Shown here: positions 1 through 18,777 of the stretch, one piece after another
Layout of the letters: each line of letters opens with the position of its first letter
Position numbering within the stretch: position 1 is the stretch's first letter
From: an uncultured Sphingomonadales bacterium
GTDB taxonomy: Bacteria > Pseudomonadota > Alphaproteobacteria > Sphingomonadales > Sphingomonadaceae
Direction of reading: 5' to 3'
DNA length: 19,846 nucleotides
Assembly: GCA_903958285.1 (NCBI GenBank)
Contig: CAJBSR010000235.1
Span: forward strand, 1-19,846
The notes under the pieces: model-generated
The model's database searches: none
Seen by the model: only the letters and a program-made list of their open reading frames with translations
What the model was told of the DNA's origin: nothing
Made by a program: the position numbers and the translations under genes

Positions 1-1239
1 CGGGCCGCTCCCCGTTTCATCAATTGTTGCGCCGCGTTCAAACCGGTCGAGCGAGAAGGGGGCGTTGAGCGGGTGTGGCTTGCCCGTCGCCAGTGTGTGG
101 GCATAGGTCCAGCCGGAGGCGGGCGTCGCCTTAAAGCCACCATAGCACCAGCCGCCATTGATATAGAGGTTGGGCACCGGCGTTTCACCGATGATCGGCG
201 CGCCATCAAAGCTCATATCGGTCACCCCGCTCCAAGTGCGCACCATCCGCAGGCGGGAGAGGGCGGGCACAAGGGCAAGACCCTGTGCGACAGCGCCTTC
301 CATCACCATGGGGTGGCCGCGCTGGGCATAGCTGGGCCAATTGTCCGGGTCGCCGCCAAAGACGATGCCGCCCTTGTCTGACTGGCTGATATAGCAGTGC
401 AGCGATTGCGACATGATCACGCTGTTGATCATCGGCTTCACGCCTTCGGTCACCATCGCCTGCAGGGTCTGGGATTCGACGGGCAGTTTCAGCCCAGCCA
501 TGGCCGCGACATGGCCGCTATGGCCCGCCACACAAATGCCAACGCGTCCAGCGCCGATCCGGCCACGCGTCGTTTCCACGCCGACCACAGCATTGCCATC
601 ACGCACAAAGCCTGTGACTTCGCATTTCTGAATGATGTCGACGCCAAGGCTATCTGCCCCGCGTGCATAGCCCCAGGCTACGGCATCATGCCGCGCAGAG
701 CCGCCCCGCCGCTGGATCAGGCCGCCCTGAATGGGGAAGCGAGCATCGCGCGACATATCGAGCAGCGGCTCCAGCTTGGCGACTTCATCGCGGGTCATCA
801 GATCAGCATCAATGCCGTCGCAGCGCATAGCGTCGCCGCGTTCCGCCAGCTTGACCATGTCGGCATCGCTATGGCCGAGGAACATGGCCCCACGCGGGCT
901 GAACATGACGTTGTAGTTCAGATCATCGCTCAACCCGTGCCACAGCTTCAGGCCGAATTCGTAGAAGTTATGCAAAGGCTCCAGCCGATAATTGGACCGG
1001 ACAATCGTTGTGTTGCGCCCGGTATTGCCGCCGCCGATCCAGCCTTTCTCCAGCACTGCAATGTTGCGCAGCCCATGGACCTTGGCCAGATAATAAGCGG
1101 TCGCCAAACCATGCCCGCCACCACCAATGATGATGATGTCGTAATGGGACTTGGGTTCCGGATCGCGCCATGCCGGTTGCCAATGCTTTTGCCCGTTCAG
1201 GGCACCGCGCAGCAATCCAAGGGCCGAATATCGGCTCAT
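1..1239 (-). CDS. Sarcosine oxidase beta subunit-like FAD/FMN amine oxidase (3' end outside window)
   Basis: Flavin-dependent oxidation of a secondary N-methyl amine, by homology to the beta subunit of heterotetrameric sarcosine oxidase (SoxB). Seen: the N-terminus MSRYSALGLLRGAL and the WRDPEP segment typical of SoxB; an FAD-binding GGGGHG at residues 39-44; GNTGRNTTIVRSNY at about 71-84; and a GGSARHDAVAWGYAR segment whose His184 aligns, from memory of the family, with the covalent FMN histidine. The 413 codons visible are almost the full family length (about 415 residues), so only a few residues are cut at base 1. The ATG overlaps the upstream gene's TGA by four bases (ATGA), implying translational coupling. 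The usual SoxD, SoxA and SoxG partners are not seen; its visible partners are HcnB/HcnC-like subunits. The family is secure; sarcosine as substrate is not, because the operon context suggests another N-methyl amino acid. Confidence 0.88.
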   Translation of the reverse strand, partial: MSRYSALGLLRGALNGQKHWQPAWRDPEPKSHYDIIIIGGGGHGLATAYYLAKVHGLRNIAVLEKGWIGGGNTGRNTTIVRSNYRLEPLHNFYEFGLKLWHGLSDDLNYNVMFSPRGAMFLGHSDADMVKLAERGDAMRCDGIDADLMTRDEVAKLEPLLDMSRDARFPIQGGLIQRRGGSARHDAVAWGYARGADSLGVDIIQKCEVTGFVRDGNAVVGVETTRGRIGAGRVGICVAGHSGHVAAMAGLKLPVESQTLQAMVTEGVKPMINSVIMSQSLHCYISQSDKGGIVFGGDPDNWPSYAQRGHPMVMEGAVAQGLALVPALSRLRMVRTWSGVTDMSFDGAPIIGETPVPNLYINGGWCYGGFKATPASGWTYAHTLATGKPHPLNAPFSLDRFERGATIDETGSGP

Positions 1240-2372
1240 GAAATGGGCATCCACCCGCGCTTTTCGCGCCAGTCCTTTTCCAGCCCGTCAAAGCGCGACA
1301 GCTTCAGGAGATCAATGTCCGCAAAGGAGCATTTGCCGTCGATCACAAGGTCGCGGATCGCATGGCCCGATGCAGGCGACAGGCCGAAGCCCACGCTCGA
1401 CATAGAGGCGACGACGACATTGTCCGGGCTGGTCAGCCGGTCGATGATCGGACGGCCATCAGGCGAGTTTTCAATCACGCCTGCCCAGCTGCGAATGACG
1501 TTGAGGTGTGCGGCCTTTGGCAGCATCTCGGCAAGACGCTTTGCGAGGTTGCGGGCCAGCGGTGTGGAGGGACGCGCGGCAGGGCCGGTTGCATCCACAT
1601 CCAGCCATTCATGCGGGCCACCACCATAAGCAAGGTTGCCGCGCAGCGTCTGCCGACCATAGATTTTATGGCCATCGACACCGCCCAACGGCATCATCGG
1701 CGCAGGCTCTGTGATGATCATTTCCGCGCGCGCAGCCGCCAACGGCACATCCACGCCCAGCTGCGCCATCAGCTGCGGTATTTGCGGCCCTGCGGCGACG
1801 ACCACAGAGTCACAGCCATAGGTTGCATTGGCGGTCTTCACCGCCGTCACCTTGCCGCCTGCCGTTTCAAAGCCAGTCACAGGGCTGTGCTGGATGATCT
1901 TGCCGCCCAGATCCTGCAACGCCCAGGCATAGGCCTGCACACTGCGCTGCGGGTTGGCATGGCCACCAAACTTATAGTGGATGCCGCCAAAGGAATTGTC
2001 CCCGGCCAGCGGCACCGCTTCCTGAATCTGTTTGACGTCGAGCAGTTCAACCGGGTGGTCGAGCCGCTTGTGGCGTTCGGCGATGAAACGATATTGCTCC
2101 CACTGCCGCTCCGTCATGGCAATCAGGATGCGGCCCTTGCGGTGCTCGGTTGGATAGCCGAGCAGCTCATCCATTTGGGGCCAAAGGCGCTGTTCTTCGT
2201 CGAAGAGCGGGCTCGCATAATGCGATGCGCCGCCGCCATTGCGGCCCGAGGCTTCCCAGCCGACAATGAACTTGTCGAGCACCGTGACCTTCACGCCCGA
2301 CCGCGCGAGCCACCAACCGGCGCTCAGGCCAGTGACGCCACCGCCAACGATGACAACTTCTGACCCGCTCAT
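1236..2372 (-). CDS. FAD-dependent amine oxidase of the DAO fold (HcnC / opine oxidase B / D-hydroxyproline dehydrogenase-like)
   Basis: A 378-residue flavoprotein of the D-amino acid oxidase (DAO) fold. Seen: dinucleotide-binding GGGVTG at residues 10-15; the acidic strand end VTVLDK; the ASGRNGGGASH segment typical of the HcnC/opine oxidase/glycine oxidase branch; and a C-terminal flavin-contact region around SMSSVGFGLSPASGHA. Such proteins oxidise the C-N bond of an amino acid or N-substituted amino acid and pass electrons to an HcnB-like subunit. Its start overlaps the stop of the HcnB-like gene by four bases (ATGA), and its own stop overlaps the SoxB-like start in the same way, so the three are probably co-translated. 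Inference: HcnC- and HcnB-like proteins form one complex removing a methyl or amino group. The substrate is unknown. Confidence 0.85.
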   Translation of the reverse strand: MSGSEVVIVGGGVTGLSAGWWLARSGVKVTVLDKFIVGWEASGRNGGGASHYASPLFDEEQRLWPQMDELLGYPTEHRKGRILIAMTERQWEQYRFIAERHKRLDHPVELLDVKQIQEAVPLAGDNSFGGIHYKFGGHANPQRSVQAYAWALQDLGGKIIQHSPVTGFETAGGKVTAVKTANATYGCDSVVVAAGPQIPQLMAQLGVDVPLAAARAEMIITEPAPMMPLGGVDGHKIYGRQTLRGNLAYGGGPHEWLDVDATGPAARPSTPLARNLAKRLAEMLPKAAHLNVIRSWAGVIENSPDGRPIIDRLTSPDNVVVASMSSVGFGLSPASGHAIRDLVIDGKCSFADIDLLKLSRFDGLEKDWREKRGWMPIS

Positions 2373-3832
2373 TTGTACATCCCCGTGTAGAGCATCTCGC
2401 GGTGCTCATCCTGATAAGGCGTGCCGATATCTTCGACAGGCACCCATTGTGTTGGAATACCGAACCACACATCCCATGCGGCTTCCATTTCCGCAGGTTC
2501 ATCCCATTCGGCCAAAATCTTGAGCGGAAGCGGACGGACTGGCGCGCGGTGGCTGGCGAGCGGAATGGTGCCGTAGGGCGTACCGGTTTCCAGCGCCAGC
2601 AGCATTGCCACCTGATCGCGGCAGCGGCGGCCTTGGCAAACGCCCATGCCTGAACGGGTGAGGCGCTTGATCTGGTCCGGGTTGGCGGGGCCATCCTTCA
2701 GCAGTGTTTCCAAGGACCGAGCGCACATGGCAGCGGGGCGGGGCAGATAATTTGGCGGCTGAATGCCGATCAGATCCGCCCGCGTCACTTCCTCGCACTG
2801 GCAAATGATGGTGTCATTGGTCGTGACGGCGGTTAGCGCGCGCATCCAATCCATCCGGTAGCCGATATGGTCAAAGCCGCTATCGGTGAGCCCCGCACAA
2901 TCGCCGACAGCGATCACGCTGGCTTCTCCTGCGGGAATATAACCGCCGCGTGTTGGGTTAAGCGCGCGCGGGCCGTGCATGGCGTCGACCAGTTCAATCG
3001 ACGGCACAAGGCCGATGGCGGCGCAGATTGTGTCGCAGGCGATGGTCTCACCCGATGTCAGCGTCGCGGATTCAACGCCGTCGATCCCGCCCTTGGCCGA
3101 CGCGATGGTCTGGCCACACGAGATGGAGATTCCAGCGGCTTTGACTTGCGCGACCAGATCAGCGCTCCCCTGCGGCGCATCGCGCACTTCGATAAGGCCA
3201 GCGACCTCAATTCCACGGGCATGCGCGACCAAGGCCGTCTCCAGCGCCAGATCATGTGACCCGAGCACCAGAACGCGGCGTCCGGCAAAGGCGTCATAGC
3301 GTGTCAGCAGCATCTGAAGGGCGGCAGCGCCCATGACGCCGGGCTGGTTCCAGCCGGGGAAGGCCATCGCCAAATCACGGGCGCCGGTCGCCAGCACGAT
3401 CGTGCCAAAGCCAACCATCCAAGAGCGCTCGGCATCGGCCAGACCCACCACCTGATCGGGCAAGCTCGCAACGCCGGGGCCATTGCGGTAAACGCCCCAT
3501 GCTGTGGTGCCCAGCAACAGTTCCGCGCCCGCGTCCATCGCCTTTTCAAGGTCCGGCATGCTCATGAAGATCGCTTCGAGCATCCGTTCGCTATTCTGGG
3601 TGGCCGCTGTCATCCGTCCGCCGAAATAGAGCGGTGTGTCATTGCCCATCAAAGCGCCGGACACGGGGTTCTCATCGACCAGCAGGACAGACTTGCCAGC
3701 CGTCGCATGTTCAACGGCAGCGGCAATGCCGCTCGGCCCTGCACCAACCACGACGACATCGTAGCGGGCTTCGGGAGCGCTTCTGGTGCCGTTGACGGCA
3801 CAGATATCGGTACCTGTAAAGTTCAGTTCCAT
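2369..3832 (-). CDS. FAD/NAD(P)-binding oxidoreductase with C-terminal BFD-type [2Fe-2S] domain (HcnB / opine oxidase A-like)
   Basis: A 487-residue electron-transfer flavoprotein of the HcnB/OoxA/D-hydroxyproline dehydrogenase type. Seen: first Rossmann motif GAGPSG at residues 30-35; a pyridine-nucleotide-disulfide oxidoreductase core including VLATGARD and a second Rossmann region VLVLGSHDLALE; the FAD-contact motif VIAVGDCAG; and a C-terminal cysteine set C344-x-C346 and C399-x4-C404 (CQC and CQGRRC), which should ligate a [2Fe-2S] cluster as in bacterioferritin-associated-ferredoxin-like domains. The spacing between the two cysteine pairs (52 residues) is longer than I expect for HcnB. 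It has the N-terminal half of SoxA but no C-terminal aminomethyltransferase domain. The ATG shares its A with the TAA of the upstream PLP gene. Probable role: partner of the HcnC-like and possibly the SoxB-like subunit. Confidence 0.85.
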   Translation of the reverse strand: MELNFTGTDICAVNGTRSAPEARYDVVVVGAGPSGIAAAVEHATAGKSVLLVDENPVSGALMGNDTPLYFGGRMTAATQNSERMLEAIFMSMPDLEKAMDAGAELLLGTTAWGVYRNGPGVASLPDQVVGLADAERSWMVGFGTIVLATGARDLAMAFPGWNQPGVMGAAALQMLLTRYDAFAGRRVLVLGSHDLALETALVAHARGIEVAGLIEVRDAPQGSADLVAQVKAAGISISCGQTIASAKGGIDGVESATLTSGETIACDTICAAIGLVPSIELVDAMHGPRALNPTRGGYIPAGEASVIAVGDCAGLTDSGFDHIGYRMDWMRALTAVTTNDTIICQCEEVTRADLIGIQPPNYLPRPAAMCARSLETLLKDGPANPDQIKRLTRSGMGVCQGRRCRDQVAMLLALETGTPYGTIPLASHRAPVRPLPLKILAEWDEPAEMEAAWDVWFGIPTQWVPVEDIGTPYQDEHREMLYTGMYK

Positions 3833-5091
3833 TACACTGCCTCTAATGCCTGCGCCAAATCGGCGATCAGGTCGTCAATATGTTCCAGCCCAACCGAAAG
3901 ACGGATGGTGCCATCTGTAATTCCGCCTGCCAGCCGCTGCTCGCGCGGCACGGCATAGTGCGTGGTGCTGGCGGAATGGCAAATCAGCGTTTCCGATCCC
4001 CCAAGGCTGACAGCCACCTTCATCAGTTGAAGCTGGTCGAGCATGCGGAAGGCTTCGGCCTCACCGCCATGCAAGTGGAAGGAGAAGGTCGAGCCCGCCG
4101 CCTTGCACTGCCTGTCGTAAACAGCGCGGCCCCGCGTGCCTTCTTCCAGAAAGCCAAGATAGGTGACACCGGCCACCTTGGGGTGATCCCGCAGAAACTC
4201 TGCCACGCCGCGCGCATTGCTCATCGCGCGTTCGGTGCGCACAGCAACAGACTCCAGCGACCGCAGGACAAGCCATGACGTATAGGGATCAAGATGATTG
4301 CCCCATGTCGTGCGCTGCAATTTCAGCTGATCGATTAACTCCTTGCGGCCGGAAATCCCGCCCGCCAGAAGGTCACTATGCCCGCCGCAATATTTGGTGA
4401 GTGATGTCATGCACAGATCAACCCCGTGCGAAATCGGCCGCTGGGAAAAGGGGCCGAGCAGCGTGTTGTCGACCACAACGAGCGGGCGGTGCCCCTGTTT
4501 TGCGCCGACTTCATCAGCGATGCGGACCATGAGGTCGAGATCGACAATAGCGGCTGTCGGGTTGGCAGGCGTTTCGGCGATGATGAGCTTGAGCAGGCCT
4601 TTGGCCATTGCGGCTTCAGCGGCTGCGCGCACGCCATCTTCGTCCGTGCCGTCCAGATACGCGGTGGGGTGTGTGCCGAATTGCGGCATCATGGTGTTGT
4701 AGAGAAAATCGACCCCGCCATAGATCGGGCGACCATGCAACACGCTATCGCCGCTGCGCAGATAAGCGAGCGCGATGCTGGAATGTGCCGCCATGCCGCT
4801 GCAATAGGCAACAGCATCTTCTGCGCCATCAATCGCCGCCAGCCGTGCCTCTAGAAAATCAAGGCCGGGGTGCCCCAGCCGCGAATAGATGTGGTTGGTT
4901 TCTCCAACCAGCGGCCCGGTGCCGTCAAAATAGGCCTCATGCACAAACTTGGCATGCTGCGCGGACGGATACACAAAGGTCGACGTCATGAAGATGGGCG
5001 GCTTGGCCGCACCCATCCCCAATTGCGGGTCATATCCGTAGGCGACTGCCAGTGTTTCGGGGCGGAAATCCGCAGGTCGTTTATTTGCCAT
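3832..5091 (-). CDS. Cys/Met-metabolism PLP-dependent enzyme (cystathionine gamma-synthase/gamma-lyase family)
   Basis: A 419-residue fold-type I PLP enzyme acting on the gamma or beta carbon of sulfur or hydroxy amino acids. Seen: the active-site YSR motif (Tyr69, Arg71) supplied to the neighbouring subunit; SGMA at 98-101 for phosphate binding; Tyr123 for ring stacking; Asp207 (VVVDNT) pairing with the pyridine nitrogen; and Lys232 in SLTKYCGGHSD as the Schiff-base lysine. Position 125 is Gly, where methionine gamma-lyase has its reactive Cys, so a synthase- or cystathionine-lyase-like activity is as likely as methionine gamma-lyase. I chose the ATG at 5091 because MANKRPADFRPETLA fits the family start; it overlaps the Rieske gene by 11 bases. 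In-frame GTG/ATG at 5121/5118 lie inside the Rieske gene without a Shine-Dalgarno. Its place in an N-demethylation operon is unusual. Confidence 0.88.
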   Translation of the reverse strand: MANKRPADFRPETLAVAYGYDPQLGMGAAKPPIFMTSTFVYPSAQHAKFVHEAYFDGTGPLVGETNHIYSRLGHPGLDFLEARLAAIDGAEDAVAYCSGMAAHSSIALAYLRSGDSVLHGRPIYGGVDFLYNTMMPQFGTHPTAYLDGTDEDGVRAAAEAAMAKGLLKLIIAETPANPTAAIVDLDLMVRIADEVGAKQGHRPLVVVDNTLLGPFSQRPISHGVDLCMTSLTKYCGGHSDLLAGGISGRKELIDQLKLQRTTWGNHLDPYTSWLVLRSLESVAVRTERAMSNARGVAEFLRDHPKVAGVTYLGFLEEGTRGRAVYDRQCKAAGSTFSFHLHGGEAEAFRMLDQLQLMKVAVSLGGSETLICHSASTTHYAVPREQRLAGGITDGTIRLSVGLEHIDDLIADLAQALEAV

Positions 5092-6289
5092 GGCTGTCGA
5101 TATAGGCGCGCGCGACATCACAATACCAGTCGGTAAACCGGCGCGCGAGCATCTCTGCGTCGTTGGAATAGGGGCCCGGCGTGTAACCGGGGCTGTTGAT
5201 CCCGGCGTGGTTGTTTTCAGCCAGAGCTTTGTCCTGGCCGTTTGTGACCGTCCAAAGCTGCGTCAGGCTTTCAATATCATAATCAACGCCTTCCACGGCA
5301 TCCTTATGCACGAACCACTTGCTGTAGACATGCGTTTCGGTGGGGCTGACCGGCATGCAGCTGAACATGAACACATGATCGGACGTTGCATGGCAGAAGA
5401 GGTGCGGATCAATCGCCCAACGCATCGAGCCGACATCGCCGCCATTGGCCGTAAGCAGCGGCTTTTTCACGACGGGCTGACCATCCATTGAAATGGAGGT
5501 GCACCCTTCGTTGAGGGCAAAGCGCGCGACCTGCCACCAATGGCCTTCTACGGGCTCGTGCGGAAGGCCGGCGGCATCCATGGCAGCGGCAAAGGCTTCG
5601 GCCCGCGTGTCTTCATGCGCGTCGAAATGTTTGGACATGCCGACAGGGAAGGTCTTGGCCAGTTCCGGGTGGCCCGTCGCACAATGATAGCATTCGCGCG
5701 CATTTTCCATCACCAACTTCCAGTTGGCATCTTCCACCAGCACGCTCTCATGGGCCAGCTTCAAATCCTTGAAGTTGATCGGACCTGCGTAGGTCGAGAA
5801 CTTGTCGCGGAAATCGTCGATCGGCAGCGGATTGTCTGCGAGGCAGATATAGACAGCGCCGGCAATGCACTCGATGGCAATCGGCTTCAGGCCGTGGGTG
5901 GTCTTGTCAAAGTCATCATCCATCCGCCCGGCGGCAAACAGAGATCCATCCAGATCATAGGTCCAGCGGTGATAGGGGCAGACCAGCTTTGGCGCTGTGC
6001 CGTGGCCGACCGGGCAGATGACGGAACCGCGGTGGCGGCAGCTGTTATGAAACGCGCGGATGTCGCCCTGCTTGTCACGGACGATGAGCACCGGCCATTT
6101 GCCAACCATCATGGAGATGTAGCTGCCCGTTTTGGGCAATTCACATTCCATGCCGGCCATCAGCCAGCTTTGCCCGTAAATGGCCGTCAGATCGAAATCA
6201 AAGGCGTCCTGGCTGATGTACAGATCGCGGGGCAGAGTGTGGCCGGTTTTGCGCTCGCGAAACAGCGCATCAATATGCTTCATATCCAC
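5081..6289 (-). CDS. Rieske non-heme iron oxygenase of the glycine betaine / stachydrine demethylase type (GbcA-like)
   Basis: The oxygenase component that hydroxylates an N-methyl of a quaternary amine, releasing formaldehyde. Seen: Rieske ligands C84-x-H86 and C104-x2-H107; the catalytic ECYHC segment with Fe ligands His202 and His207; and Asp353 as probable third ligand. Glu199 stands where most Rieske oxygenases have the bridging Asp; Glu here is characteristic of quaternary-ammonium Rieske enzymes such as carnitine oxygenase CntA and stachydrine demethylase. Whole-length resemblance to GbcA includes WLMAGMECELP, KWFVHKDAVEGVDYD and GINSPGYTPGPYS. The start is GTG 6289, nine bases after GGGGAG; ATG 6283 is the alternative, and the in-frame TTG 6334 would add an unmatched tail. 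No ferredoxin reductase (GbcB role) is in the window. First gene of the operon, divergent from the LysR gene. Confidence 0.9.
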   Translation of the reverse strand: MDMKHIDALFRERKTGHTLPRDLYISQDAFDFDLTAIYGQSWLMAGMECELPKTGSYISMMVGKWPVLIVRDKQGDIRAFHNSCRHRGSVICPVGHGTAPKLVCPYHRWTYDLDGSLFAAGRMDDDFDKTTHGLKPIAIECIAGAVYICLADNPLPIDDFRDKFSTYAGPINFKDLKLAHESVLVEDANWKLVMENARECYHCATGHPELAKTFPVGMSKHFDAHEDTRAEAFAAAMDAAGLPHEPVEGHWWQVARFALNEGCTSISMDGQPVVKKPLLTANGGDVGSMRWAIDPHLFCHATSDHVFMFSCMPVSPTETHVYSKWFVHKDAVEGVDYDIESLTQLWTVTNGQDKALAENNHAGINSPGYTPGPYSNDAEMLARRFTDWYCDVARAYIDSHGK

Positions 6290-6452: not shown

Positions 6453-7361
6453 ATTAACCGCCGGTGGCTCCCGCTCAACGCCCTGCGGGCGTTTGAAGCC
6501 GTGGGGCAGAATAACAGCTTTACCGTGGGGGCGGCCGCGCTTTCGGTGTCGCAAAGCGCGATGAGCCGACATGTCAGCGGGCTTGAGGAGTTGCTGGGCA
6601 AACAGTTGTTTGAACGCGAAGCCTCCGGCCTCGTTTTAACAGCGGCGGGTGCTGAGCTTCTGCCCGTCGTGACGAAGAGCCTGGACCGTATCGAACAGAC
6701 GATCAACGCTATCCGCGATGATCGCATGGCGCAGCGGACCGTCCGCATTCACATTCCGCCGTCGTTGCTCCAGCAGCAGTTTTTGCCGATTTTGCGGGAT
6801 TTTCGCCTCGAATATCCGGATATCCGCGTGGATGTGTCCAGCTCCAACGTGACCGGCCTGCCGACAACGGCGCTGGATATGGCGATTGTGTATGACCGGC
6901 CCAATGTCGACGATCAGGTCACAGACTTGTTGCGGATGGTCCGCGTCGCGCCGCTTTGCTCTCCCGAGACGGCGAAAGCGGTGGACGGCCAATCGCAGGC
7001 AGACTTTCTCGATAAGCATGAGCTTTTGCACATCAAGCTGGACGGTCAGCCGCGCGACCTGCTCTGGTCCTCTTATGCGCACCAGATTGGCGCGCAGATC
7101 AACACTTCAAATGGCATTGCCTTTGATACAGCGATTGCTGCGGCTCAATATGCGATGGCCGCCAGCGGTATCCTGCTGGGGGACGTCGACATGTTCGCGG
7201 AGGAAATCGCGCAAGGCCGTTTGATCATGCCGTTCGATACCGTCATGGAGGACGGCTACGGCTATTATCTCAAGCTCCACGCGGATGATCTGTCCGACCC
7301 TGTCATCTCCGTGTTCAGAAGCTGGCTGATCCAGAGGTTTGGTTCAGGCCGAAACGCCTGA
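6453..7361 (+). CDS. LysR-type transcriptional regulator (GcvA-like), probable ATT start
   Basis: A DNA-binding regulator, probably of the divergent demethylation operon. Seen: an N-terminal winged helix-turn-helix beginning LPLNALRAFEAV, continuing through SVSQSAMSRHVSGLEELLGK and LFERE; then a periplasmic-binding-like effector domain starting near PSLLQQQFLPILRDF. With the start at ATT 6453 the protein is MNRRWLPLN... and 302 residues, the normal length for GcvA-like LysR proteins. AAGGG at 6444-6448 lies four bases upstream. No ATG, GTG or TTG occurs in this frame between the stop at 6393 and GTG 6501; GTG 6501 would delete the first 16 residues including most of helix 1. The effector is unknown, perhaps the betaine or a demethylation product. 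Alternative: a sequencing frameshift near the start. Confidence 0.8.
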   Translation: MNRRWLPLNALRAFEAVGQNNSFTVGAAALSVSQSAMSRHVSGLEELLGKQLFEREASGLVLTAAGAELLPVVTKSLDRIEQTINAIRDDRMAQRTVRIHIPPSLLQQQFLPILRDFRLEYPDIRVDVSSSNVTGLPTTALDMAIVYDRPNVDDQVTDLLRMVRVAPLCSPETAKAVDGQSQADFLDKHELLHIKLDGQPRDLLWSSYAHQIGAQINTSNGIAFDTAIAAAQYAMAASGILLGDVDMFAEEIAQGRLIMPFDTVMEDGYGYYLKLHADDLSDPVISVFRSWLIQRFGSGRNA

Positions 7362-7405: not shown

Positions 7406-7936
7406 CTACTCAAACCATTCAAGCCACTGCGTTGTATCAACTCGGGCTTCAGGCTTGCGGCCCGTCTTGGCCAGCATATGGGCGCGAATGTCTTCCTTGG
7501 GGTCGATGGGCCGGACAATTTCATAGACCCGGTCATATTCGCTATACTGCACTTTCCAGCCGGACTCTGTCCGCACATAGCGGTCATGATAGAGAGCAGA
7601 CCCGACAGTATCATCCATCCGTTCAAGGCTGATGAAACGGTCTTCCAGATACCAGGTACCTTCGGCTGTATCCGGGCCGGTGAAGCGGATTTCCGGCGTG
7701 TGGCCATGGTGCATGGCAATCACGTCTGAATTGAAGCTGGAGGCGATGAAGTTGATCATGTTCGCCTTGCCGGACACCTGCAGCCGGTACCCGCCGCCGC
7801 GCAAATCGATGGAGACATCATCGGCGAACACCTCGGCCAATTCCGTTTCATTGCCGGTGTCGATGCATCGGAAATATTTGTGTTTCAGCTGACGGATCTC
7901 TTCCAGATCAGACAGCTGCTGAAGTGTGAAGGTCAT
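7406..7936 (-). CDS. SnoaL-like / NTF2-fold protein
   Basis: A 176-residue protein of the SnoaL-like (ketosteroid isomerase/NTF2) fold. Seen: the N-terminal helix LEEIRQLKHKYFRCIDTGNETELAEVFADDVSID, typical of the SnoaL_4 family, the MHHGHTPEIRF strand, and YHDRYVRTESGWKVQYSEYDR near the C-terminal sheet. Members act as isomerases, cyclases, dehydratases or hydroxylation helpers on hydrophobic rings. The ATG at 7936 has GAGAGGA eight bases upstream. It follows the Old Yellow Enzyme gene by 47 bases on the same strand, so both are likely one operon. No catalytic function can be assigned; the neighbours suggest a hydrophobic ketone intermediate. Confidence 0.8.
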   Translation of the reverse strand: MTFTLQQLSDLEEIRQLKHKYFRCIDTGNETELAEVFADDVSIDLRGGGYRLQVSGKANMINFIASSFNSDVIAMHHGHTPEIRFTGPDTAEGTWYLEDRFISLERMDDTVGSALYHDRYVRTESGWKVQYSEYDRVYEIVRPIDPKEDIRAHMLAKTGRKPEARVDTTQWLEWFE

Positions 7937-7983
7937 GGCAGCATTCCTCTCTTTTGTTGTTTTGGTGGCCGACGTTGGTCCTG

Positions 7984-9060
7984 TTATCCAGCCGTGGCAT
8001 CCAGCGCGGGGTAATCGGTGTAGCCTTGCGCTTCGCCGGTATAGAGTTTGGTATAGTCCGGTTTCGCCAGCGGCGCGCCCGCCTGGAGGCGTGTGACAAG
8101 ATCGGGGTTGGCGATAAAGGCCCGACCGAAGCTAACCGCGTCGGCCCGTCCCGCGTAGATCAGCGCACGGCCTTTCTCCGCCGTCAGCATGTTGTTGACG
8201 ATGATGGGTGTGGTGCTGTGGTCCCGCACCATGGCCAGCGTGTCGAGATCGGCCAGACCCATGTCGAGCACGTGGAGATAGGCGAGACCAAGCGGCGCTA
8301 TGGCTTTCAGCAGCGGGATGAAGGTGGCCGCCGGGTCAGTGACATCCATGCCATTATAGGGATTTCCCGGCGAAAAGCGCAGGCCGACGCGGTCCGACCC
8401 AATGGCATCGGCCATCGCCTTTAGGACCATCACCGGGAAGCGGATGCGACTTTCAGGCGACCCGCCAAAGTCATCAGTCCGTTGGTTGCTGGCGGGGTTG
8501 AGGAACTGATTGATGAGATAGCCGCTGGAGGCATGAAGTTCGATGCCGTCGATCCCCGCCGCGCGTGCGTTGCGGGCGGCCGTGGCGAACTCGGCGACAA
8601 GGGCGGGCAACTCGTCGGCGTCGAGCGCGCGCGGCATCGCCGTTTCGGCAGGGACACCATCTGGCCCCGGAACCTTGTCCGGGCAGGGCAGGGCGGAAGG
8701 TGCGATGACGTCCGCCTCATAGCCGCGATTGGCAGCGACCACGACACGACCGCAATGCATGATCTGCATCACGATTTGCCCGCCTTCGGCATGAACCGCA
8801 TCGGCGACGCGCGCCCATCCGTCGATCTGGGCTTGCGAATAAATGCCCGGCGTGCGCCAATAGCCCTTGCCGACCGCGCTCGGCTGAACGCCTTCGGTGA
8901 CGATGAGGCCAGCGGAGGCCCGCTGCCGGTAATACTCCACCATCATGTCGTTGGGCACGTCTTCGGGGCCTGCCCGGTCGCGCGTCATGGGGGACATGGC
9001 GATGCGGTTGGACAGCTTGAGCGCACCAAGGGTAATAGGGGTAAAAAGGGGGTCGCTCAT
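7984..9060 (-). CDS. Old Yellow Enzyme-family FMN ene-reductase (NemA-like) with altered active-site motif
   Basis: A 358-residue FMN enzyme of the Old Yellow Enzyme family, normally reducing the C=C bond of an alpha,beta-unsaturated carbonyl with NAD(P)H. Seen: the N-terminal LFTPITLGALKLSNRIAMSPMTR with the flavin-tuning Thr26; QIMHCGRV at 99-106; the substrate loop ELHASSGYLINQFL with His176 and Tyr181; the sugar-ring DDFGGS; and the phosphate-binding segment SFGRAFIANPDLV. The second substrate-anchoring position of the H-x-x-N/H motif is Ser179, not Asn or His. GAGAGGA precedes the ATG at 9060. The promoter region is shared with the divergent SDR. It likely saturates an enone during catabolism of the compound handled by region B; the substrate is unknown. 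Confidence 0.92.
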   Translation of the reverse strand: MSDPLFTPITLGALKLSNRIAMSPMTRDRAGPEDVPNDMMVEYYRQRASAGLIVTEGVQPSAVGKGYWRTPGIYSQAQIDGWARVADAVHAEGGQIVMQIMHCGRVVVAANRGYEADVIAPSALPCPDKVPGPDGVPAETAMPRALDADELPALVAEFATAARNARAAGIDGIELHASSGYLINQFLNPASNQRTDDFGGSPESRIRFPVMVLKAMADAIGSDRVGLRFSPGNPYNGMDVTDPAATFIPLLKAIAPLGLAYLHVLDMGLADLDTLAMVRDHSTTPIIVNNMLTAEKGRALIYAGRADAVSFGRAFIANPDLVTRLQAGAPLAKPDYTKLYTGEAQGYTDYPALDATAG

Positions 9061-9096
9061 TCGAATCCTCTCGCGCCAATCAGTGATTGACCATGA

Positions 9097-9130
9097 TTTG
9101 CGTTACATCTTATGCGTCAGATTACGCAAA
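9097..9130. promoter_or_regulatory. Inverted TTTGCGT/ACGCAAA element in divergent promoter
   Basis: TTTGCGTTA (9097-9105) and TTACGCAAA (9122-9130) form an inverted pair, with TATGCGTCA (9111-9119) between them. A possible promoter for the plus-strand SDR (TTGACC at 9087-9092, weak TATGCG at 9111-9116) would be overlapped by these sites. A separate perfect palindrome, CAATCA-G-TGATTG, lies at 9077-9089. The pair is a candidate operator shared by the Old Yellow Enzyme and SDR genes. Confidence 0.5.
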
Positions 9131-9147
9131 GCAAGGAAGGATGTCTG

Positions 9148-9900
9148 ATGAATTACGGATTTGAGGGGAAAGTTGCGCTTGTGACTGGCGCAAGCGGAGG
9201 CATCGGACGGGCCAGCGCAGTGGCCTTTGCGGCATCTGGGGCTTCCGTGGTTGTTTCAGACGTCAATGAAGCGGGCGGGGAAGAAACTGTCGCTCTCATC
9301 GCTGCGGCAGGTGGCAAGGCCGTATTCCAGCGCTGTGACGTGTCCAACGGTGCTGACGTGAAATCCCTCGTTGCGCGCGCTGTTTCTGAATATGGCCACC
9401 TCGACTTTGCGCTCAACAATGCAGGCATCAACAATCTCGGCTCGAACGAGTACGACGATGACGTCTGGGCGCGCAGCATGGGCATCAACCTGACCGGCGT
9501 GATGATGTGCATGCGCGAAGAAGCCGAAGTCATGATGGCGCAGGGCAAGGGAGCGATCGTCAACACAGCGTCGATCAACGGCCTTGTCGGCAATGGTGCG
9601 CAGCCGGGCTATACCGCGTCCAAGCATGGCGTGGTCGGTCTGACCCGCCATGGCGCGCTCCGCTGGGCACAGGCGGGCATTCGCGTCAACTGCGTTTGCC
9701 CCGGCGTCATCGAAACACCGATGACGGCACCGCTGACCGCCAATCCTGAGATGAAGAAGATACTCGACGGCATGACGCCGATGGGTCGGATGGGGAAGGC
9801 AGAAGAGATTGCCTCTGCCGTTATGTGGCTCTGTTCAGATCAGGCGAGCTTCGTGACCGGCCACCCGCTGGTGGTTGATGGCGGCGCGACAGCGGACTGA
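9148..9900 (+). CDS. Short-chain dehydrogenase/reductase (SDR), classical
   Basis: A 250-residue classical SDR, oxidising a hydroxyl or reducing a ketone. Seen: cofactor motif TGASGGIG at residues 13-20; Asp38 at the end of beta-2, favouring NAD(H); NNAG at 90-93; and a complete catalytic set Asn114, Ser142, Tyr155, Lys159 (YTASK). The C-terminal LVVDGG is typical. The start is ATG 9148, seven bases after AAGGAAGG (9133-9140); the in-frame ATG at 9112 lies inside the operator region and is less likely. Single gene, divergent from the Old Yellow Enzyme gene and followed by a strong terminator. The substrate is not determinable; an alicyclic or steroid alcohol would suit the neighbours. Confidence 0.92.
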   Translation: MNYGFEGKVALVTGASGGIGRASAVAFAASGASVVVSDVNEAGGEETVALIAAAGGKAVFQRCDVSNGADVKSLVARAVSEYGHLDFALNNAGINNLGSNEYDDDVWARSMGINLTGVMMCMREEAEVMMAQGKGAIVNTASINGLVGNGAQPGYTASKHGVVGLTRHGALRWAQAGIRVNCVCPGVIETPMTAPLTANPEMKKILDGMTPMGRMGKAEEIASAVMWLCSDQASFVTGHPLVVDGGATAD

Positions 9901-9924
9901 CCTCCGCCGGTTCACCGCACAATG

Positions 9925-9960
9925 AAAAAGGGGCCGGGAGTTTCCTCCCGGCCCCTTTTT
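9925..9960. terminator. Bidirectional intrinsic terminator
   Basis: Perfect 16-bp arms (9925-9940 and 9945-9960) enclose a TTTC loop. The stem is GC-rich with an A5 tract on the left and a T5 tract on the right, so it can terminate both the SDR (ending 9900, plus) and the receptor gene (ending 9980, minus). Confidence 0.93.
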
Positions 9961-9979
9961 TGTGATGTCGCTGAAGTGT

Positions 9980-12550
9980 TTAGAACTTCATGTCGAGCGT
10001 CAGGCCATAGGTGCGCGGATCACCGTAGATGGTGGTTGCGTAACCCAAGGCGCCGAAGTCAACCGAACGGACGACATATTCCTTGTTGGTCAGGTTCTTA
10101 CCCCACAATGTCAGGTTCAGGCCTTCAGCGGCGCTGCCCAGAACGTTGTCGACACGGATCTGGCCATCAACCAGACCGCGGGCATCACCCTTGGTCTGTT
10201 CTGAGAAAGGCGACGTGATCGGGTTGCCGAACATGTAGAACTCAGACGTGTAGTTATACCCGACGCGCGCCGTCAGCTTTGATTCGCCGATTTCCTGAAC
10301 GTAGGTGGCACCGACATTGGCCGTATAGCGCGGAGCATAGCCTGCCTTGAACACATCAGCTGCGTTTCCATTGACGCCCGGTGTCGTTGTTGCCTGTGGG
10401 AAATCAACCGGATCGACCTTTACGTAACCGAATGCACCATCCAGCGAGAAATTGTCGGTGACTGCAAAGCGACCTTCCAATTCCAAGCCATAATAGTTGG
10501 TCTTACCAGCGTTGAACACCGCGTTACCGAAGCTGCCGCCACCGGTGATCGGGATTGGCAGGGTGACCAGCTGGTCCTTGTAGATGTTGTAGAACAGCGC
10601 ACCATTCAGGCGGATGCGGTTGTTGAACTCGGTCTTGAAGCCAACTTCATAGGCGTCGATCTTTTCTTCATTGAACGGCGTCAGCGGGATGTTGTTGGCT
10701 GCGTTTGCCGCATCGAAACGAACTGTCTGACGGGCGTTGAAACCGCCTGAGCGATAGCCACGTGCGACGCGGGCGTAGAGGTTGATGTCCTCATTGGCGC
10801 GATAGTCAAACGTCAGGTTGCCCGTTGGCGCGTTGAACTTCTTAGCGCCGCCGTTGATCGCGATCTGAGTTGCGTTCGTGAAGGGCGCAGCACCGTTCTG
10901 ATTGATTTGGAACGTCTTGCTGTCCCAGCTGTAACGCATGCCAAAGGTCACGCCGAACTGCTCTTCTTCGCCAAAGCGATAGGTGCCCTGACCGTAAACG
11001 GCGTAAGATTCACCGGACGCGTTGTAATCAAGAACGGTTGCCTGTGCCAAACCGCGATAGCGGGCCGGGTTTGCGGCCTGGAGTGTCGGTGCAAGCGGTC
11101 CGAATGACGTTGGCGTGAACACGGCCTGATTGGTGTCGAGCACGAACAGGAAGTTCTGGTTGTTCCGCTCGTGGCCGCTTTCCTTAAAGTAGAAGCCGCC
11201 GACAACCCACTGGAACGGGCCGTCATTGTTCGACAGGATTTCAACTTCCTGGCTGAACTGCTTCTGCCTGCGGTCATTGGCCGAGTTGAACAAGTCCTGC
11301 GACGTGCGCGGCACGGACTGCGACGCGAGGAATGCAGCGGTCCCTGGGGGTTGGAAGAGGCCCAATACGCCAACTGGAAAACCATTCAACACCGTCGTGT
11401 TCGAGAAGGCGGGGCCGCTGATCGTGCCCAGACCGTCAATGTCATTGCCACGGATCAGGTTGGTCCAGTGACGGATTGCCGTCGTAGAACGAACCGTCAC
11501 GCCATCAAACTCTGCGGTCAGACGCGTCATGTTGCCCCACAGCTTATCGGTCGAAAGGCCCGATGTGTTGCTGCAAACCGTGTCACGGCGAGTCGTAGAA
11601 ATCTGCGACACAGGCGTGCCACAACCCGCTTCGAGCGAGGTCGCCGAGTTCAGATATCCAAGGACATTCGCTGGCTGAACTGCCGCAAAGGTTTTGCCAC
11701 CAATGGTGTAGTTCGGAAGAAACGCACCGGTGCCGACGGCGGCAAGCTGGTTGTAGCCTGCCAGACCGTTGATCTTCGACCAATCGAAGATGTTGGTGAG
11801 CGTGATGTTGTCGGACAGATCGGCGGTCGCTGCAAAACGGACCGCTGTTGTGCTCTGCGCACCCGGGTCCCGGCTCTTACGTGGCTCAAGGATGTTGTCC
11901 ACAAAGCCGTTACGCTTCTTATAGAGGCCGCCCAGCGACATCTTGATGCCACCGAGGTCACCTGAATTCAGGATCGCGCGACCGACAAGCTGGCCATAAT
12001 TGCCGCCGCCGAAGCGGATCGCCATGCTGCCTTCATCATCGGGAAGTCGGGTGACGAAGTTGACAGCGCCGCCGGTCGTGTTGCGACCGAATAGTGTGCC
12101 CTGCGGACCGCGCAGTACTTCAACGCGCTCCACGTCAGACACTTCGAAGGTCGAAGCGGACGAACGGGCCATGTAGACACCGTCGACATAGATGCCGATC
12201 GGCGAGTCATAGCCCTGCGTTTCGTCGGCTGCCGTCGGGATGCCGCGGATGGTGAGAACCATTGCCGTTGCGTTGGTTGTTGCGCCGACGACCGAGACGT
12301 TCGGAGCGAGTGCCCCAAGATCCTTGGCTTCAGCGATCTGCTGGAGATCAAGCTGTGCCGACGAAATGGCGGAAATCGCCAAAGGCGTCTTCTGCAGGTT
12401 TTCGCCGCGCTTCTGCGCCGTCACGATGATTTCGTCGAGACCATTTGAGCTGGCATCTTCTGCGGCCTGCGCAAGAGCCTGCGTTGACATGCTGAGCGCG
12501 CTAACGCCCGCAAACAAAGTTGCACCAAATACACGATTGAAAGTCTTCAC
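9980..12550 (-). CDS. TonB-dependent outer-membrane receptor
   Basis: An outer-membrane beta-barrel importing a substrate with TonB energy. Seen: signal peptide MKTFNRVFGATLFAGVSALS... with likely cleavage near residues 27-29 (ALAQA); TonB-box-like DEIIVTAQ at 39-46; a plug domain with TIRGIP, VDGVYMAR and VERVEVLRGPQGTLFGRN; a long barrel; and a terminal Phe (LTLDMKF) for barrel insertion. I chose GTG 12550 because AGGGGAGG lies seven bases upstream (12558-12565) and it begins the signal peptide cleanly; the TTG 17 codons upstream gives a Pro-rich tail that spoils it. 856 residues. In sphingomonads such receptors often sit beside the catabolic genes for the compound they take up, here the KshA-like oxygenase and SDRs. 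The ligand is unknown. Confidence 0.95.
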   Translation of the reverse strand: MKTFNRVFGATLFAGVSALSMSTQALAQAAEDASSNGLDEIIVTAQKRGENLQKTPLAISAISSAQLDLQQIAEAKDLGALAPNVSVVGATTNATAMVLTIRGIPTAADETQGYDSPIGIYVDGVYMARSSASTFEVSDVERVEVLRGPQGTLFGRNTTGGAVNFVTRLPDDEGSMAIRFGGGNYGQLVGRAILNSGDLGGIKMSLGGLYKKRNGFVDNILEPRKSRDPGAQSTTAVRFAATADLSDNITLTNIFDWSKINGLAGYNQLAAVGTGAFLPNYTIGGKTFAAVQPANVLGYLNSATSLEAGCGTPVSQISTTRRDTVCSNTSGLSTDKLWGNMTRLTAEFDGVTVRSTTAIRHWTNLIRGNDIDGLGTISGPAFSNTTVLNGFPVGVLGLFQPPGTAAFLASQSVPRTSQDLFNSANDRRQKQFSQEVEILSNNDGPFQWVVGGFYFKESGHERNNQNFLFVLDTNQAVFTPTSFGPLAPTLQAANPARYRGLAQATVLDYNASGESYAVYGQGTYRFGEEEQFGVTFGMRYSWDSKTFQINQNGAAPFTNATQIAINGGAKKFNAPTGNLTFDYRANEDINLYARVARGYRSGGFNARQTVRFDAANAANNIPLTPFNEEKIDAYEVGFKTEFNNRIRLNGALFYNIYKDQLVTLPIPITGGGSFGNAVFNAGKTNYYGLELEGRFAVTDNFSLDGAFGYVKVDPVDFPQATTTPGVNGNAADVFKAGYAPRYTANVGATYVQEIGESKLTARVGYNYTSEFYMFGNPITSPFSEQTKGDARGLVDGQIRVDNVLGSAAEGLNLTLWGKNLTNKEYVVRSVDFGALGYATTIYGDPRTYGLTLDMKF

Positions 12551-12644
12551 CTTCGGTCCTCCCCTCGTTGGCGATGGCGGGTGTTCCGCCCATCTGGCCA
12601 AGATTCTCTATACGGAGGGGTGAATCCCAAATGGCGTAGAAAAT

Positions 12645-12650
12645 GTCAAT
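12645..12650 (-). promoter_or_regulatory. Candidate -35 hexamer (TTGACA) of the receptor gene
   Basis: On the minus strand TTGACA lies 95 bases before the GTG, with a weak -10 (GATTCA) 17 bases downstream. A TTACGCAT site (12657-12664) lies just upstream of it. Only the -35 is a good match. Confidence 0.35.
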
Positions 12651-12691
12651 TCAAATTACGCATCAATTGAGCGTCGTGAGCACTCGTGCAA

Positions 12692-12720
12692 CATTTGCGC
12701 ATTTGTGATGCGCAAATGTC
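12692..12720. promoter_or_regulatory. Perfect palindrome with 12-bp arms, candidate operator
   Basis: The arms ACATTTGCGCAT (12692-12703) and ATGCGCAAATGT (12709-12720) are perfect inverted repeats around TTGTG. The palindrome lies 7 bases past the stop of the KshA-like gene and about 140 bases before the receptor start. The TTTGCG core matches the other sites of region B. It lacks a T-run, so an operator is more likely than an intrinsic terminator, but a stem-loop processing site is possible. Confidence 0.6.
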
Positions 12721-12727
12721 ACGGATA

Positions 12728-13807
12728 TCAGGCGACCTGATCCCAAGGTGCATCCAGCGTACCACGCGTCACATAATGACCGTTTGCGCGAGCCTGGAAT
12801 TCACCCGCACGGGTGCGGGCATTGTAGAACTGCTTGTACCAGATGCGCAGTTTATCGAACGGCCCGTCGCCCTTGACCATCATCGGGTTGAGGCAGGGGC
12901 GCTTATTTGCCCAGATCTCAAAGTCTTGCGCAAAGGCGGCGACGCCTGCCTTTTCATAGCCCTTGGCCAGTTCAATATCAGCGGCCGTCGGAACGTCGTT
13001 CTTGACCTTCACGAACAGGCCATACCAAACCTTGATCACGCCATCGTCCACCGGGGTGTGGGTGATCAGCATGTGCGATGGGTACTCGCCGATCATGACG
13101 GACTGCAGGATGCCGGGGCCTGTATACCAAGTGTCGTTGGTCATCGGCTCTACGCCTTCGCCCGCCAGCGTTTTGTGTCCGGCAGTCAGGATCTGGCGGC
13201 AGACATGGCCGTCAAACTCGTTCTCGAACTTTACCATATCGATGGAGCCGTGGACCGGCTGCAGGTGGCCCTTGTCCGTCATGTTGTCGAGAACCTCCTG
13301 CGGGTGGCAGGCAAGTTCGCCGAGCGGTTCGACAGACCAGTTCACCCAGCTTGGCTGATCCCATTGTTCGAACGGCGGGACGTCATAGTCCGGCTCGCCG
13401 CCCTCTGCGTCGTGCCAAGCCCAGATGCAGCCAGCACGTTCCAATACCTTCCAGCTTTTGAGGCAGGCGGCCTTAGGAATGGGCGCAGGCGAATAAGGGA
13501 TGTCGTTGCAGCGGCCGTCTGGGCCGAAACGCCAGCCGTGATAGGGGCAGCGGATGTTGTCACCCTCGACATGTTCCTTATCGACAACGACGTAAGAGGA
13601 CGTGTTCTTGGCAAGATGCGTGCCCATATGCGGGCAGAAGGCTTCCACGAGAAATACCCGGCCTGAGCCGCCGCGATAGAGCACCATCTCTTCGCCAAAA
13701 TAGCGGACGGCCGCAGGAGTCGTCGTCACTTCCTCTGAAGTTGCCACCATGAACCAGCCACGGGGAAAGGTATGTTCGCCCAGGCCGTAATCGGCTGTCT
13801 TTGCCAT
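12728..13807 (-). CDS. KshA-like Rieske non-heme iron monooxygenase (oxygenase component)
   Basis: A 359-residue oxygenase component of the 3-ketosteroid-9-alpha-hydroxylase-like Rieske group. Seen: Rieske ligands C58-x-H60 and C87-x2-H90; Fe site His181 and His186 (DKGHLQPVH) with Asp295 in AFAQDFEIWANK, a segment that closely parallels the KshA C-terminal part ending in the WYKQFY-type motif. The gap between the two Rieske ligand pairs is 26 residues, about ten more than in KshA. The ATG at 13807 follows GAGGAG by seven bases. The required reductase and ferredoxin are not in the window. It lies downstream of the two Lrp/AsnC genes, with its own upstream gap of motif sites. Likely hydroxylates a hydrophobic ring substrate; steroid specificity is an inference. 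Confidence 0.88.
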   Translation of the reverse strand: MAKTADYGLGEHTFPRGWFMVATSEEVTTTPAAVRYFGEEMVLYRGGSGRVFLVEAFCPHMGTHLAKNTSSYVVVDKEHVEGDNIRCPYHGWRFGPDGRCNDIPYSPAPIPKAACLKSWKVLERAGCIWAWHDAEGGEPDYDVPPFEQWDQPSWVNWSVEPLGELACHPQEVLDNMTDKGHLQPVHGSIDMVKFENEFDGHVCRQILTAGHKTLAGEGVEPMTNDTWYTGPGILQSVMIGEYPSHMLITHTPVDDGVIKVWYGLFVKVKNDVPTAADIELAKGYEKAGVAAFAQDFEIWANKRPCLNPMMVKGDGPFDKLRIWYKQFYNARTRAGEFQARANGHYVTRGTLDAPWDQVA

Positions 13808-13860
13808 GATGGTTCTCCTCAAACTCTCTTCAGAGGAGGAGATAACTCAAAACGTAGCCT

Positions 13861-13946
13861 TAGCGCAACACCGCTTTTGCGTTTGTCACAAAAATGAACG
13901 GACTGATCTTGTTTTGCGTAAAATTGGATGACTTGAATTACGCGAT
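13861..13946. promoter_or_regulatory. Cluster of TTTGCG-type sites upstream of the KshA-like gene
   Basis: Four sites lie in the 144-base gap between the Lrp/AsnC gene and the oxygenase gene: TAGCGCAA (13861-13868), TTTGCGTTT (13876-13884), TTTGCGTAA (13913-13921) and TTACGCGAT (13938-13946, reverse). TTTGCGTAA is the exact reverse complement of the site at 9122-9130. A multi-site array of this kind suits Lrp/AsnC octamers, which wrap DNA. Function is inferred. Confidence 0.5.
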
Positions 13947-13951
13947 TAATC

Positions 13952-14443
13952 TCAATCCCCGTTTTCGATCACGCGGTCCTTCTCGGTAATCCGCACCACG
14001 CGCGGATTATATTTGAGCGTCTTGACCGCAATTGACGTTTCGACGTGGTGGACCCCGGAGATCGACAAAATAGGGTCGGAGGCCTGCTCAACCAGATTCT
14101 CAAGCTCATCAAAGACGCAGATGGCGAGGATGTTGAATTGGCCCATGGTGATCATGACGCCTGTGACCAGCGGCATTTCTGCGATCTGACGCGCGACATC
14201 GCGCACGCGACCTACTTCCGCCTGCACGCCGATGAAGGCGAGCTTTGCATGGTTGCTGAGGCTGAAGCCGGTGATGGCGGTAAAGGCGATCAAGCCATCC
14301 TGCTGCAGGCGCTTGATACGCCCGCGCACTGTGCCTTCGGTCACGCCAAGGTCTGCCGCGATCTTCCGGTTGGAGACGCGGGCATCCTTGGACAGGATAT
14401 CGATCAGCTGGCGGTCCAGATCGTCAAGCTGTGGCGCTGTCAT
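13952..14443 (-). CDS. Lrp/AsnC-family transcriptional regulator (second of tandem pair)
   Basis: A 163-residue Lrp/AsnC regulator. Seen: an N-terminal winged HTH (LDDLDRQLIDILSKDARVSN, then KIAADLGVTEGTVRGRIKRL) over residues 6-50, and a C-terminal RAM effector domain (MITMGQFNILAICVFDELENL). These proteins form dimers to octamers and respond to small molecules, classically amino acids. The ATG overlaps the stop of the upstream Lrp/AsnC gene (ATGA), so the two are translationally coupled. It is followed by the motif-rich gap before the KshA-like gene, its most likely target. The ligand is unknown; control of a catabolic oxygenase would be less usual for this family. Confidence 0.92.
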   Translation of the reverse strand: MTAPQLDDLDRQLIDILSKDARVSNRKIAADLGVTEGTVRGRIKRLQQDGLIAFTAITGFSLSNHAKLAFIGVQAEVGRVRDVARQIAEMPLVTGVMITMGQFNILAICVFDELENLVEQASDPILSISGVHHVETSIAVKTLKYNPRVVRITEKDRVIENGD

Positions 14444-14919: not shown

Positions 14920-14948
14920 GTTCTTTGACGGGGCTCCCTGTGCACCAC

Positions 14949-17088: not shown

Positions 17089-17105
17089 AATCTATCTCTC
17101 CTGAT

Positions 17106-17873: not shown

Positions 17874-17919
17874 CCTCACTCCTTCGCGTTTTGCGGCGTA
17901 TCCCCGCATCCACTTCATG

Positions 17920-17950: not shown

Positions 17951-17982
17951 TATTCAACAATCACAAACAGGAGAGAGATTCG

Positions 17983-18771: not shown

Positions 18772-18777
18772 GGTGTG

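Follow-up and report, generated by a model that had tools for sequence, protein, structure and literature searches.

The described route closest to the locus reported here is that of glycine betaine, in which GbcAB, a dimethylglycine enzyme and SoxBDAG contribute in turn a Group V Rieske oxygenase, a flavin demethylase and a folate-linked enzyme, with one-carbon genes nearby. The stachydrine demethylase Stc2 (PDB 3vca) is a related Rieske enzyme. Among the enzymes of cystathionine-gamma-synthase (CGS) fold that use pyridoxal phosphate (PLP), methionine gamma-lyase (MGL) and the PRK07049/NF005455 'cystathionine gamma-synthase family protein' (5ijg, 7swh) are the relevant groups. The window analysed here, 19,846 nucleotides in length, is the entire contig CAJBSR010000235.1 (C235) of an uncultured Sphingomonadales bacterium (GCA_903958285.1; 3.0 Mb in 593 contigs). 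It carries five genes of an operon with three demethylation systems of these kinds and an embedded CGS-fold PLP enzyme. The conserved operon is real, and no description of its gene set was found among the titles listed by a limited, mostly open-access literature search. Every reaction and substrate proposed below is deduced from gene content, order, conservation, linkage and active-site residues. On these grounds it seems moderately probable that the operon removes three N-methyl groups from a gamma-substituted amino-acid betaine, whichever that may be, and that the PLP enzyme then eliminates the gamma substituent.

Gene families were assigned from Pfam and NCBIfam profile matches to the translated frames. 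Five consecutive genes lie on the minus strand and, with ATG starts, each overlaps the next, by 11, 1, 4 and 4 bases, in agreement with an earlier note on this DNA that had given overlaps of 1-11 bases. The gene for a Rieske-type quaternary-ammonium oxygenase (5081..6283; PF00355 and PF00848; frame open to a TTG at 6334) ends with its stop at 5081, inside that of the PLP enzyme (3832..5091; PF01053, Cys_Met_Meta_PP, 319.5 bits; frame open from GTG 5121). For the latter, the ATG at 5091 was picked since most of the listed homologues have 419 amino acids. A single base (3832) is shared with the gene of an HcnB-like FAD/NAD-fold subunit (2369..3832; Pyr_redox_2 and SO_alpha_A3), which in turn overlaps by four bases (2369-2372) the gene of its presumed partner, an HcnC-like DAO flavoprotein (1236..2372; DAO). 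The last overlap (1236-1239) leads into SoxB, a sarcosine-oxidase-type beta subunit (1..1239; TIGR01373, 661.3 bits where the cut-off is 529.45). SoxB is cut by the contig end and lacks five codons and the stop when compared with the SoxB end in locus L008. The operon is incomplete in the window; relatives whose sequence extends further usually run on from SoxB to SoxD-SoxA-SoxG, as at L008 13868-18678.

The gene set is not limited to the source genome. A synteny peculiar to that genome was rejected, because the same core stands at 94 loci across three lineages: Sphingomonadales, Caulobacteraceae and the order to which genome G392 belongs. Scanning of genome contigs yielded 73 loci, and exclusion of L076 (47% identity) and L080 (31%) left 71 of operon type; 22 loci from genomes and one from a plasmid of Novosphingobium capsulatum complete the set. 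Genes in the relatives' loci were called with a codon-usage caller. The 94 loci hold 93 distinct PLP enzyme sequences, L070 and L188 being one place counted twice. In whole-genome searches the PLP subfamily was present in 24 of 149 Caulobacteraceae genomes (14 of these matches were taken in context) and, at no less than 56% identity, in 8 genomes out of the 249 from the order that includes G392, perhaps Rhizobiales. The latter order gave 19 matches; those 8 were taken as operon loci, and three (G071, G167, G217) of the 11 at 48-51% were used as controls. The controls comprise 23 loci of about 20 kb each around a sister PLP clade, with an identity threshold of 35%.

The Rieske gene lies immediately upstream of the PLP gene in 88 of the 90 loci with room for it (the misses are L045 and L194). 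In 81 of the 83 that have room, HcnB is the next gene downstream and HcnC shares its strand (misses L186 and L194). Matches at 35% identity or more to the Rieske, HcnB, HcnC and Sox proteins, and to the linked E1 and esterase described below, were found at none of the 23 control loci. The synteny of the operon is far more than chance. SoxB or SoxA is present in 63 of the 94 loci, and a monomeric DAO protein replaces SoxBDAG in 7 of the 8 loci of the order of G392. The sister PLP clade was considered as a carrier of the same operon, and this was not seen in its 23 loci at 35% identity or more, part of a set of 57 genomes being covered. The operon occurs in 8 of 196 sampled Sphingomonadales genomes, and is thus a scattered accessory pathway.

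The Rieske protein has the ligand motif CxH-x17-CPYH and also ECYHC (E197, C198, Y, H, C201), the bridging glutamate and cysteine pair (ECxxC) of Group V. Counted from the ATG at 6283 the glutamate is number 197, and from the earlier note's start at 6289 it is number 199. Together with the Rieske and Ring_hydroxyl_A families, the motif confirms the previous assignment as a quaternary-amine Rieske enzyme with a bridging Glu199. The Group V signature is described for CntA and Stc2 in PMC10952381. The closest NCBIfam model is GbcA, at 424.8 bits against a cut-off of 670; this cut-off is strict, because nothing in 12 genomes (0/12) clears it, their own glycine-betaine-type sets included. PDB relatives are 3n0q and Stc2 (352.5 bits). 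In a tree of 44 rows with midpoint root, where the support mark of the program is 95, the operon Rieskes and one Rieske from a Mesorhizobium plasmid form one group (93/89, below the mark). A separate six-row group (98/91) unites Stc2 with two further plasmid Rieskes and the Rieskes of glycine-betaine-type sets, one of which, L137, is a long branch. The enzyme is thus placed apart from Stc2, to which it is related, and from the glycine-betaine-set Rieskes; the Paracoccus Rieske mentioned below is likewise outside the operon group. The Mesorhizobium mediterraneum plasmid locus (L198 8995-17734) showed no PLP match in 19 kb, and its neighbours are an oligopeptide ABC transporter, a reductase, an NADH:flavin oxidoreductase and an IS110 gene.

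The two flavoproteins of the pair belong to the SoxA/SoxB superfamily, and HcnB/HcnC is the earlier note's name for them. The HcnB-like subunit has a CxC...CxxxxC end of the [2Fe-2S] kind (cysteines by eye), and Fer2_BFD scores on it just under its cut-off. The best NCBIfam models are SoxA for the HcnB-like protein (130.9 bits against a cut-off of 1164) and SoxB for the HcnC-like protein (114.9 against 529.45), the best PDB relatives of the latter being beta subunits of sarcosine oxidase and amine oxidases related to them. On a Paracoccus denitrificans plasmid (L199 8992-14133) a Rieske gene (45%), a reductase, an HcnB-like gene (39%) and an HcnC-like gene (59%) stand together, neighboured by SoxA/G, FolD, PurU, an acyl-CoA ligase and dehydrogenase genes. 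This cluster suggests that the HcnB/HcnC-like pair may be a demethylase working with Rieske enzymes. As to the SoxBDAG system, SoxB is over its cut-off, SoxD, SoxA and SoxG of relatives are each below theirs, and SoxA of relatives has a GcvT-type folate-binding domain. The gene set therefore holds the Rieske, HcnBC-like and SoxBDAG systems, that is, the one Rieske and two flavin systems which the earlier note had proposed for three methyl groups.

The operon differs from the glycine betaine route in several respects. Besides the low GbcA score and separate grouping of its Rieske, it has the HcnB/HcnC-like pair in place of DgcAB or DMGDH for the dimethylglycine step, and it includes the PLP enzyme; GbcB reductase was not found in the window cluster among frames and Pfam matches. 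Glycine-betaine-type sets coexist with it. In Chakrabartia godavariana such a set starts about 2.4 kb past the operon SoxG and comprises a BCCT transporter, a second SoxG-SoxA-SoxD-SoxB, another Rieske of the GbcA family and a dimethylglycine-oxidase-like gene with DAO and GcvT parts. Beyond it lies a third Rieske set. The same genes are found in the window's genome, spread over separate contigs. G392 and G147 carry separate Rieske/GbcB-like/Sox sets (GbcB-like scores of 358 and 365 bits, under the cut-off of 500), and sets of GbcB-like, old yellow enzyme (OYE) and Sox genes lie elsewhere in G392. Glycine betaine as sole substrate is disfavoured by these separate sets. Because of them, and of the three demethylation systems, the substrate is likely a non-glycine betaine; the previous claim against glycine betaine stands to this extent.

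The operon could still be a second glycine betaine pathway in which the PLP enzyme serves an unrelated purpose, for example homocysteine supply. The Rieske, flavin step and SoxBDAG do mirror the glycine betaine route, OpuAC-type betaine importers flank four copies in the order of G392, and the set in C. godavariana is only a few kb away. This explanation is nonetheless decidedly unlikely in view of the separate sets and the Rieske grouping, the position of the PLP gene directly after the Rieske gene in nearly all loci, and the other homocysteine-forming genes in the genome. The additional CGS-family PLP genes there are an O-acetylhomoserine (OAH/OAS) sulfhydrylase-type gene on contig C435 and a cystathionine beta-lyase-type gene on C224, both over cut-off, and an O-succinylhomoserine sulfhydrylase-type piece on C531. 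With homocysteine-forming genes on C435 and C531, a housekeeping MetB/MetZ role of the operon gene was rejected, and the three genes together show that it is not the genome's only enzyme of this kind.

The PLP enzyme scores 510.1 bits for PRK07049, just over the cut-off of 504, and the best-scoring named enzymes after that family are MGLs, although the NCBIfam equivalog for MGL was not reached (335.3 bits against 549.7). The operon enzymes form one clade (40 rows; 85/100, below the mark of 95) in which the PLP lysine, Lys243, is invariant. They are separate from the main (sister) PRK07049 clade; the window protein is 43-52% identical to 23 genes of that clade, and the 23 loci of these lack demethylation genes. 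Ten diagnostic positions split the two clades, including His61, Thr239 and Cys381; Thr239 of the operon enzymes sits four residues before Lys243. In the numbering of C. freundii MGL, the operon enzymes share with MGL, besides the fold, the catalytic residues Lys210, Tyr58, Tyr113 and Arg60 (40/40 each) and Arg374 (39/40, one gap); Ser339 is kept in 38/40. They differ from it in that Cys115 is replaced by Gly in 39 and Ala in one, Lys239 by Arg in 40/40, and Asp240 by Thr in 34, Met in 4 and Leu in 2, the window protein having Gly, Arg and Thr. These three residues are presumably important for the methionine specificity of MGL.

The replacements bear on methionine betaine (N,N,N-trimethylmethionine), which had been put forward beforehand along with the head group of the betaine lipid diacylglyceryl-N,N,N-trimethylhomoserine (DGTS). 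Three demethylations would here be followed by a methionine gamma-lyase reaction to methanethiol and 2-oxobutyrate, as the rank of MGLs among the named enzymes would suggest. With the MGL score far below its cut-off, none of the three specificity residues kept and no methanethiol genes noticed beside the operon (no search was aimed at them), this substrate is very unlikely. Of the two earlier candidates methionine betaine is thus weakened; the DGTS head group fits best, though unproven.

The product expected of the PLP step is reflected in a linked gene. An AceE-like 2-oxoacid dehydrogenase E1 of about 780 amino acids, called transketolase or pyruvate dehydrogenase E1 in the source annotations, is a neighbour of the operon at 13 of the 94 loci, and its arrangement there varies. 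One of these loci is a Caulobacteraceae record and one lies in a genome of the G392 order, the others being from Sphingomonadales. In the sample of 196 Sphingomonadales genomes, E1 is present in 7/8 with the operon and 58/188 without it (p = 0.002, uncorrected for kinship). The linked E1 fits a 2-oxo acid as product of the PLP step, and in this the earlier gamma-carbon idea gains ground. The linkage resembles that of mdeA-mdeB, the methionine lyase operon of Pseudomonas putida, a likeness that speaks for methionine betaine; a literature check gave no confirmation.

A 2-oxo acid would also arise if an amino-acid betaine of the serine or cysteine type were demethylated and the PLP enzyme then performed beta-elimination to pyruvate; a replacement reaction belongs to the same alternative. 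CGS-fold enzymes are generally capable of both eliminations, and AceE, the E1 of pyruvate dehydrogenase, is what the linked E1 resembles most. We regard this as unlikely. The hosts should have pyruvate dehydrogenase already (no search for it was made), so a dedicated E1 would suit 2-oxobutyrate better, and we know of no abundant betaine of the cysteine or serine type.

Other linked genes bear on the substrate. A PETase-like esterase with a signal peptide (by eye) is found in 30 of the 94 loci. Its relatives at 60% identity or above occur in 6/8 operon genomes and 0/188 others of Sphingomonadales, and at E 1e-50 in 7/8 and 29/188, both comparisons being uncorrected for kinship. CocE/NonD hydrolases are present in 6/94 loci, TonB receptors in 18/94 and an MFS transporter in 19/94; OpuAC-type betaine importers (4/94) and oligopeptide-type importers (4/94) are all from the order of G392. 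One-carbon genes (formate dehydrogenase, PurU, AdhC/FghA, FTHFS) adjoin 33/94 loci and no control locus. The linked esterase, hydrolases and transporters point to an esterified or bulky external betaine. A sugar-type ABC transporter beside the G392 copy was dropped as evidence, as it was matched at that locus only.

Glyceryl-N,N,N-trimethylhomoserine, the head group of DGTS, is the best-fitting natural candidate known to us, and we name it tentatively. As a homoserine ether with three N-methyl groups, it would match each demand of the linked genes. When phosphate is scarce, many algae, fungi and bacteria replace phospholipids by betaine lipids. PF11899, presumably the betaine-lipid synthase family, is absent at E 1e-10 from 11 of 14 operon genomes, the window's genome included; the source of the betaine would thus be external, and recycling of own lipids is unlikely in those genomes. 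Within the green lineage, DGTS is assigned to green algae and nonflowering plants in PMC8752610.

In the proposed pathway the Rieske enzyme would oxidise one N-methyl of the quaternary ammonium to formaldehyde, the HcnB/HcnC-like flavoprotein would take off the second, and SoxBDAG, or the monomeric DAO protein in the order of G392, would remove the third, in the case of SoxBDAG onto tetrahydrofolate. The PLP step is placed after demethylation because PLP chemistry should need a primary amine. The CGS-fold enzyme would then eliminate the gamma substituent of the free amino acid, giving ammonia, 2-oxobutyrate and the leaving group, and in some hosts the operon-linked AceE-like E1 would oxidise the 2-oxo acid. 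With DGTS, uptake by a TonB receptor would be followed by stripping of the acyl chains by the esterase, transport, demethylation and loss of glycerol. The operon might then be the first catabolic pathway for a betaine-lipid head group, from uptake of DGTS or glyceryl-trimethylhomoserine through triple demethylation and PLP-dependent release of glycerol to delivery of 2-oxobutyrate to E1, a possibility we raise with reserve. Among the titles listed by the literature search described above no catabolic route for the trimethylhomoserine head group was found. The previous reading as a whole is partly supported, being strengthened on its demethylation and gamma-carbon parts; it withstood two of the refuting conditions set for it, synteny confined to one genome and a sole housekeeping MetB/MetZ.

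Several observations weigh against this reading. The Arg at MGL position 239 is common to the sister PLP clade too, so the active-site residues do not prove gamma-elimination, and beta-elimination to pyruvate is possible. E1 is found in those 58 genomes that lack the operon, is far from it or on another contig in G823, G871, G920 and G921, and is missing from the operon genome G885; in the window's genome its neighbours are an Lrp-like regulator (by eye) and the second demethylase set. The esterase matches PETase-like enzymes weakly (40.8 bits), the transporters vary by lineage, and the control loci come from mixed families, so that they carry little weight for widespread genes like those of TonB receptors. 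The window shows no reductase for the Rieske enzyme among frames and Pfam matches, and no HcnA-like gene among the operon frames; a GbcB-like gene, below cut-off, lies between Rieske and PLP genes in 4/94 loci, all of the order of G392, and is a fragment in one of them, L181. No PLP match was found in the 19 kb Paracoccus stretch, so the HcnB/HcnC pair is not everywhere tied to the PLP enzyme. Some loci depart from the pattern: L194 has the PLP gene without the other core genes, L186 lacks HcnB/C, L070 shows no third demethylase, and L045 (10004-18417), from Novosphingobium sp. B 225, lacks the Rieske gene while keeping PLP-HcnB-HcnC-SoxBDA. In the genome of the last no GbcA-family match was obtained at E 1e-40, and its pathway may start from a dimethyl compound.

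If the DGTS reading is true, freshwater and soil Alphaproteobacteria would hold a defined gene set that returns the nitrogen and carbon of the DGTS head group, and this set could serve as a marker for tracking betaine-lipid head-group breakdown. Should the substrate be a different betaine, the four-gene core, conserved across three lineages, still poses a directly testable question.

A divergent LysR-family regulator, GcvA-like (6501..7361, plus strand; HTH_1 and LysR_substrate), lies next to the operon in the window, and LysR of this type is present in 72/94 operon loci and, at the control threshold, in 0/23 controls. Its start at 6501 is uncertain, as the HTH profile is matched only from position 12 onward. 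Relatives have about 304 amino acids, and beside them this frame begins late; the true start may be a different one, or an assembly fault may lie upstream.

Contig C403 of the same assembly (L139, G000:C403) encodes the SoxB end (93% protein identity), SoxD (97%), SoxA (97%) and SoxG (95%), and also bears the esterase (95%) and a BCCT gene. It was rejected as the exact continuation of the window, since its end is only 81% identical in DNA to window positions 1-300; it may come from another strain mixed into the bin.

Other genes were seen alongside the operon in particular loci. In L054 (2867-7766) a formate-tetrahydrofolate ligase and two MTTB-family methyltransferases adjoin the operon LysR, and a corrinoid demethylation route may there stand beside the Rieske enzyme. 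A 2-trimethylaminoethylphosphonate dioxygenase-like gene follows LysR in L111 (5214-6985; 358 bits against a cut-off of 400) and, as a 93% identical copy, in L184 (5783-6931); L111 adds an HD-domain gene after LysR. Fatty-acid-desaturase-family and phosphonate-binding-like proteins accompany the operon in L112, L177, L178 and L180, all of the order of G392. At 12 operon loci, for example at L111 15398-16762 and L056 18770-20134, there is a recurring PF12831 flavoprotein with a length of about 454 amino acids; its solved relatives match chiefly its nucleotide-binding start.

The right-hand part of the window (7406-19846), its genes named by eye from the translations, resembles another catabolic cluster, with an OYE, several short-chain dehydrogenases/reductases, NTF2-like proteins, an alpha/beta hydrolase and an MFS transporter. 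It also holds, on the minus strand, a TonB receptor (9980-12601), another Rieske gene unrelated to the first (12728-13822) and two AsnC/Lrp regulators (13952-14952).

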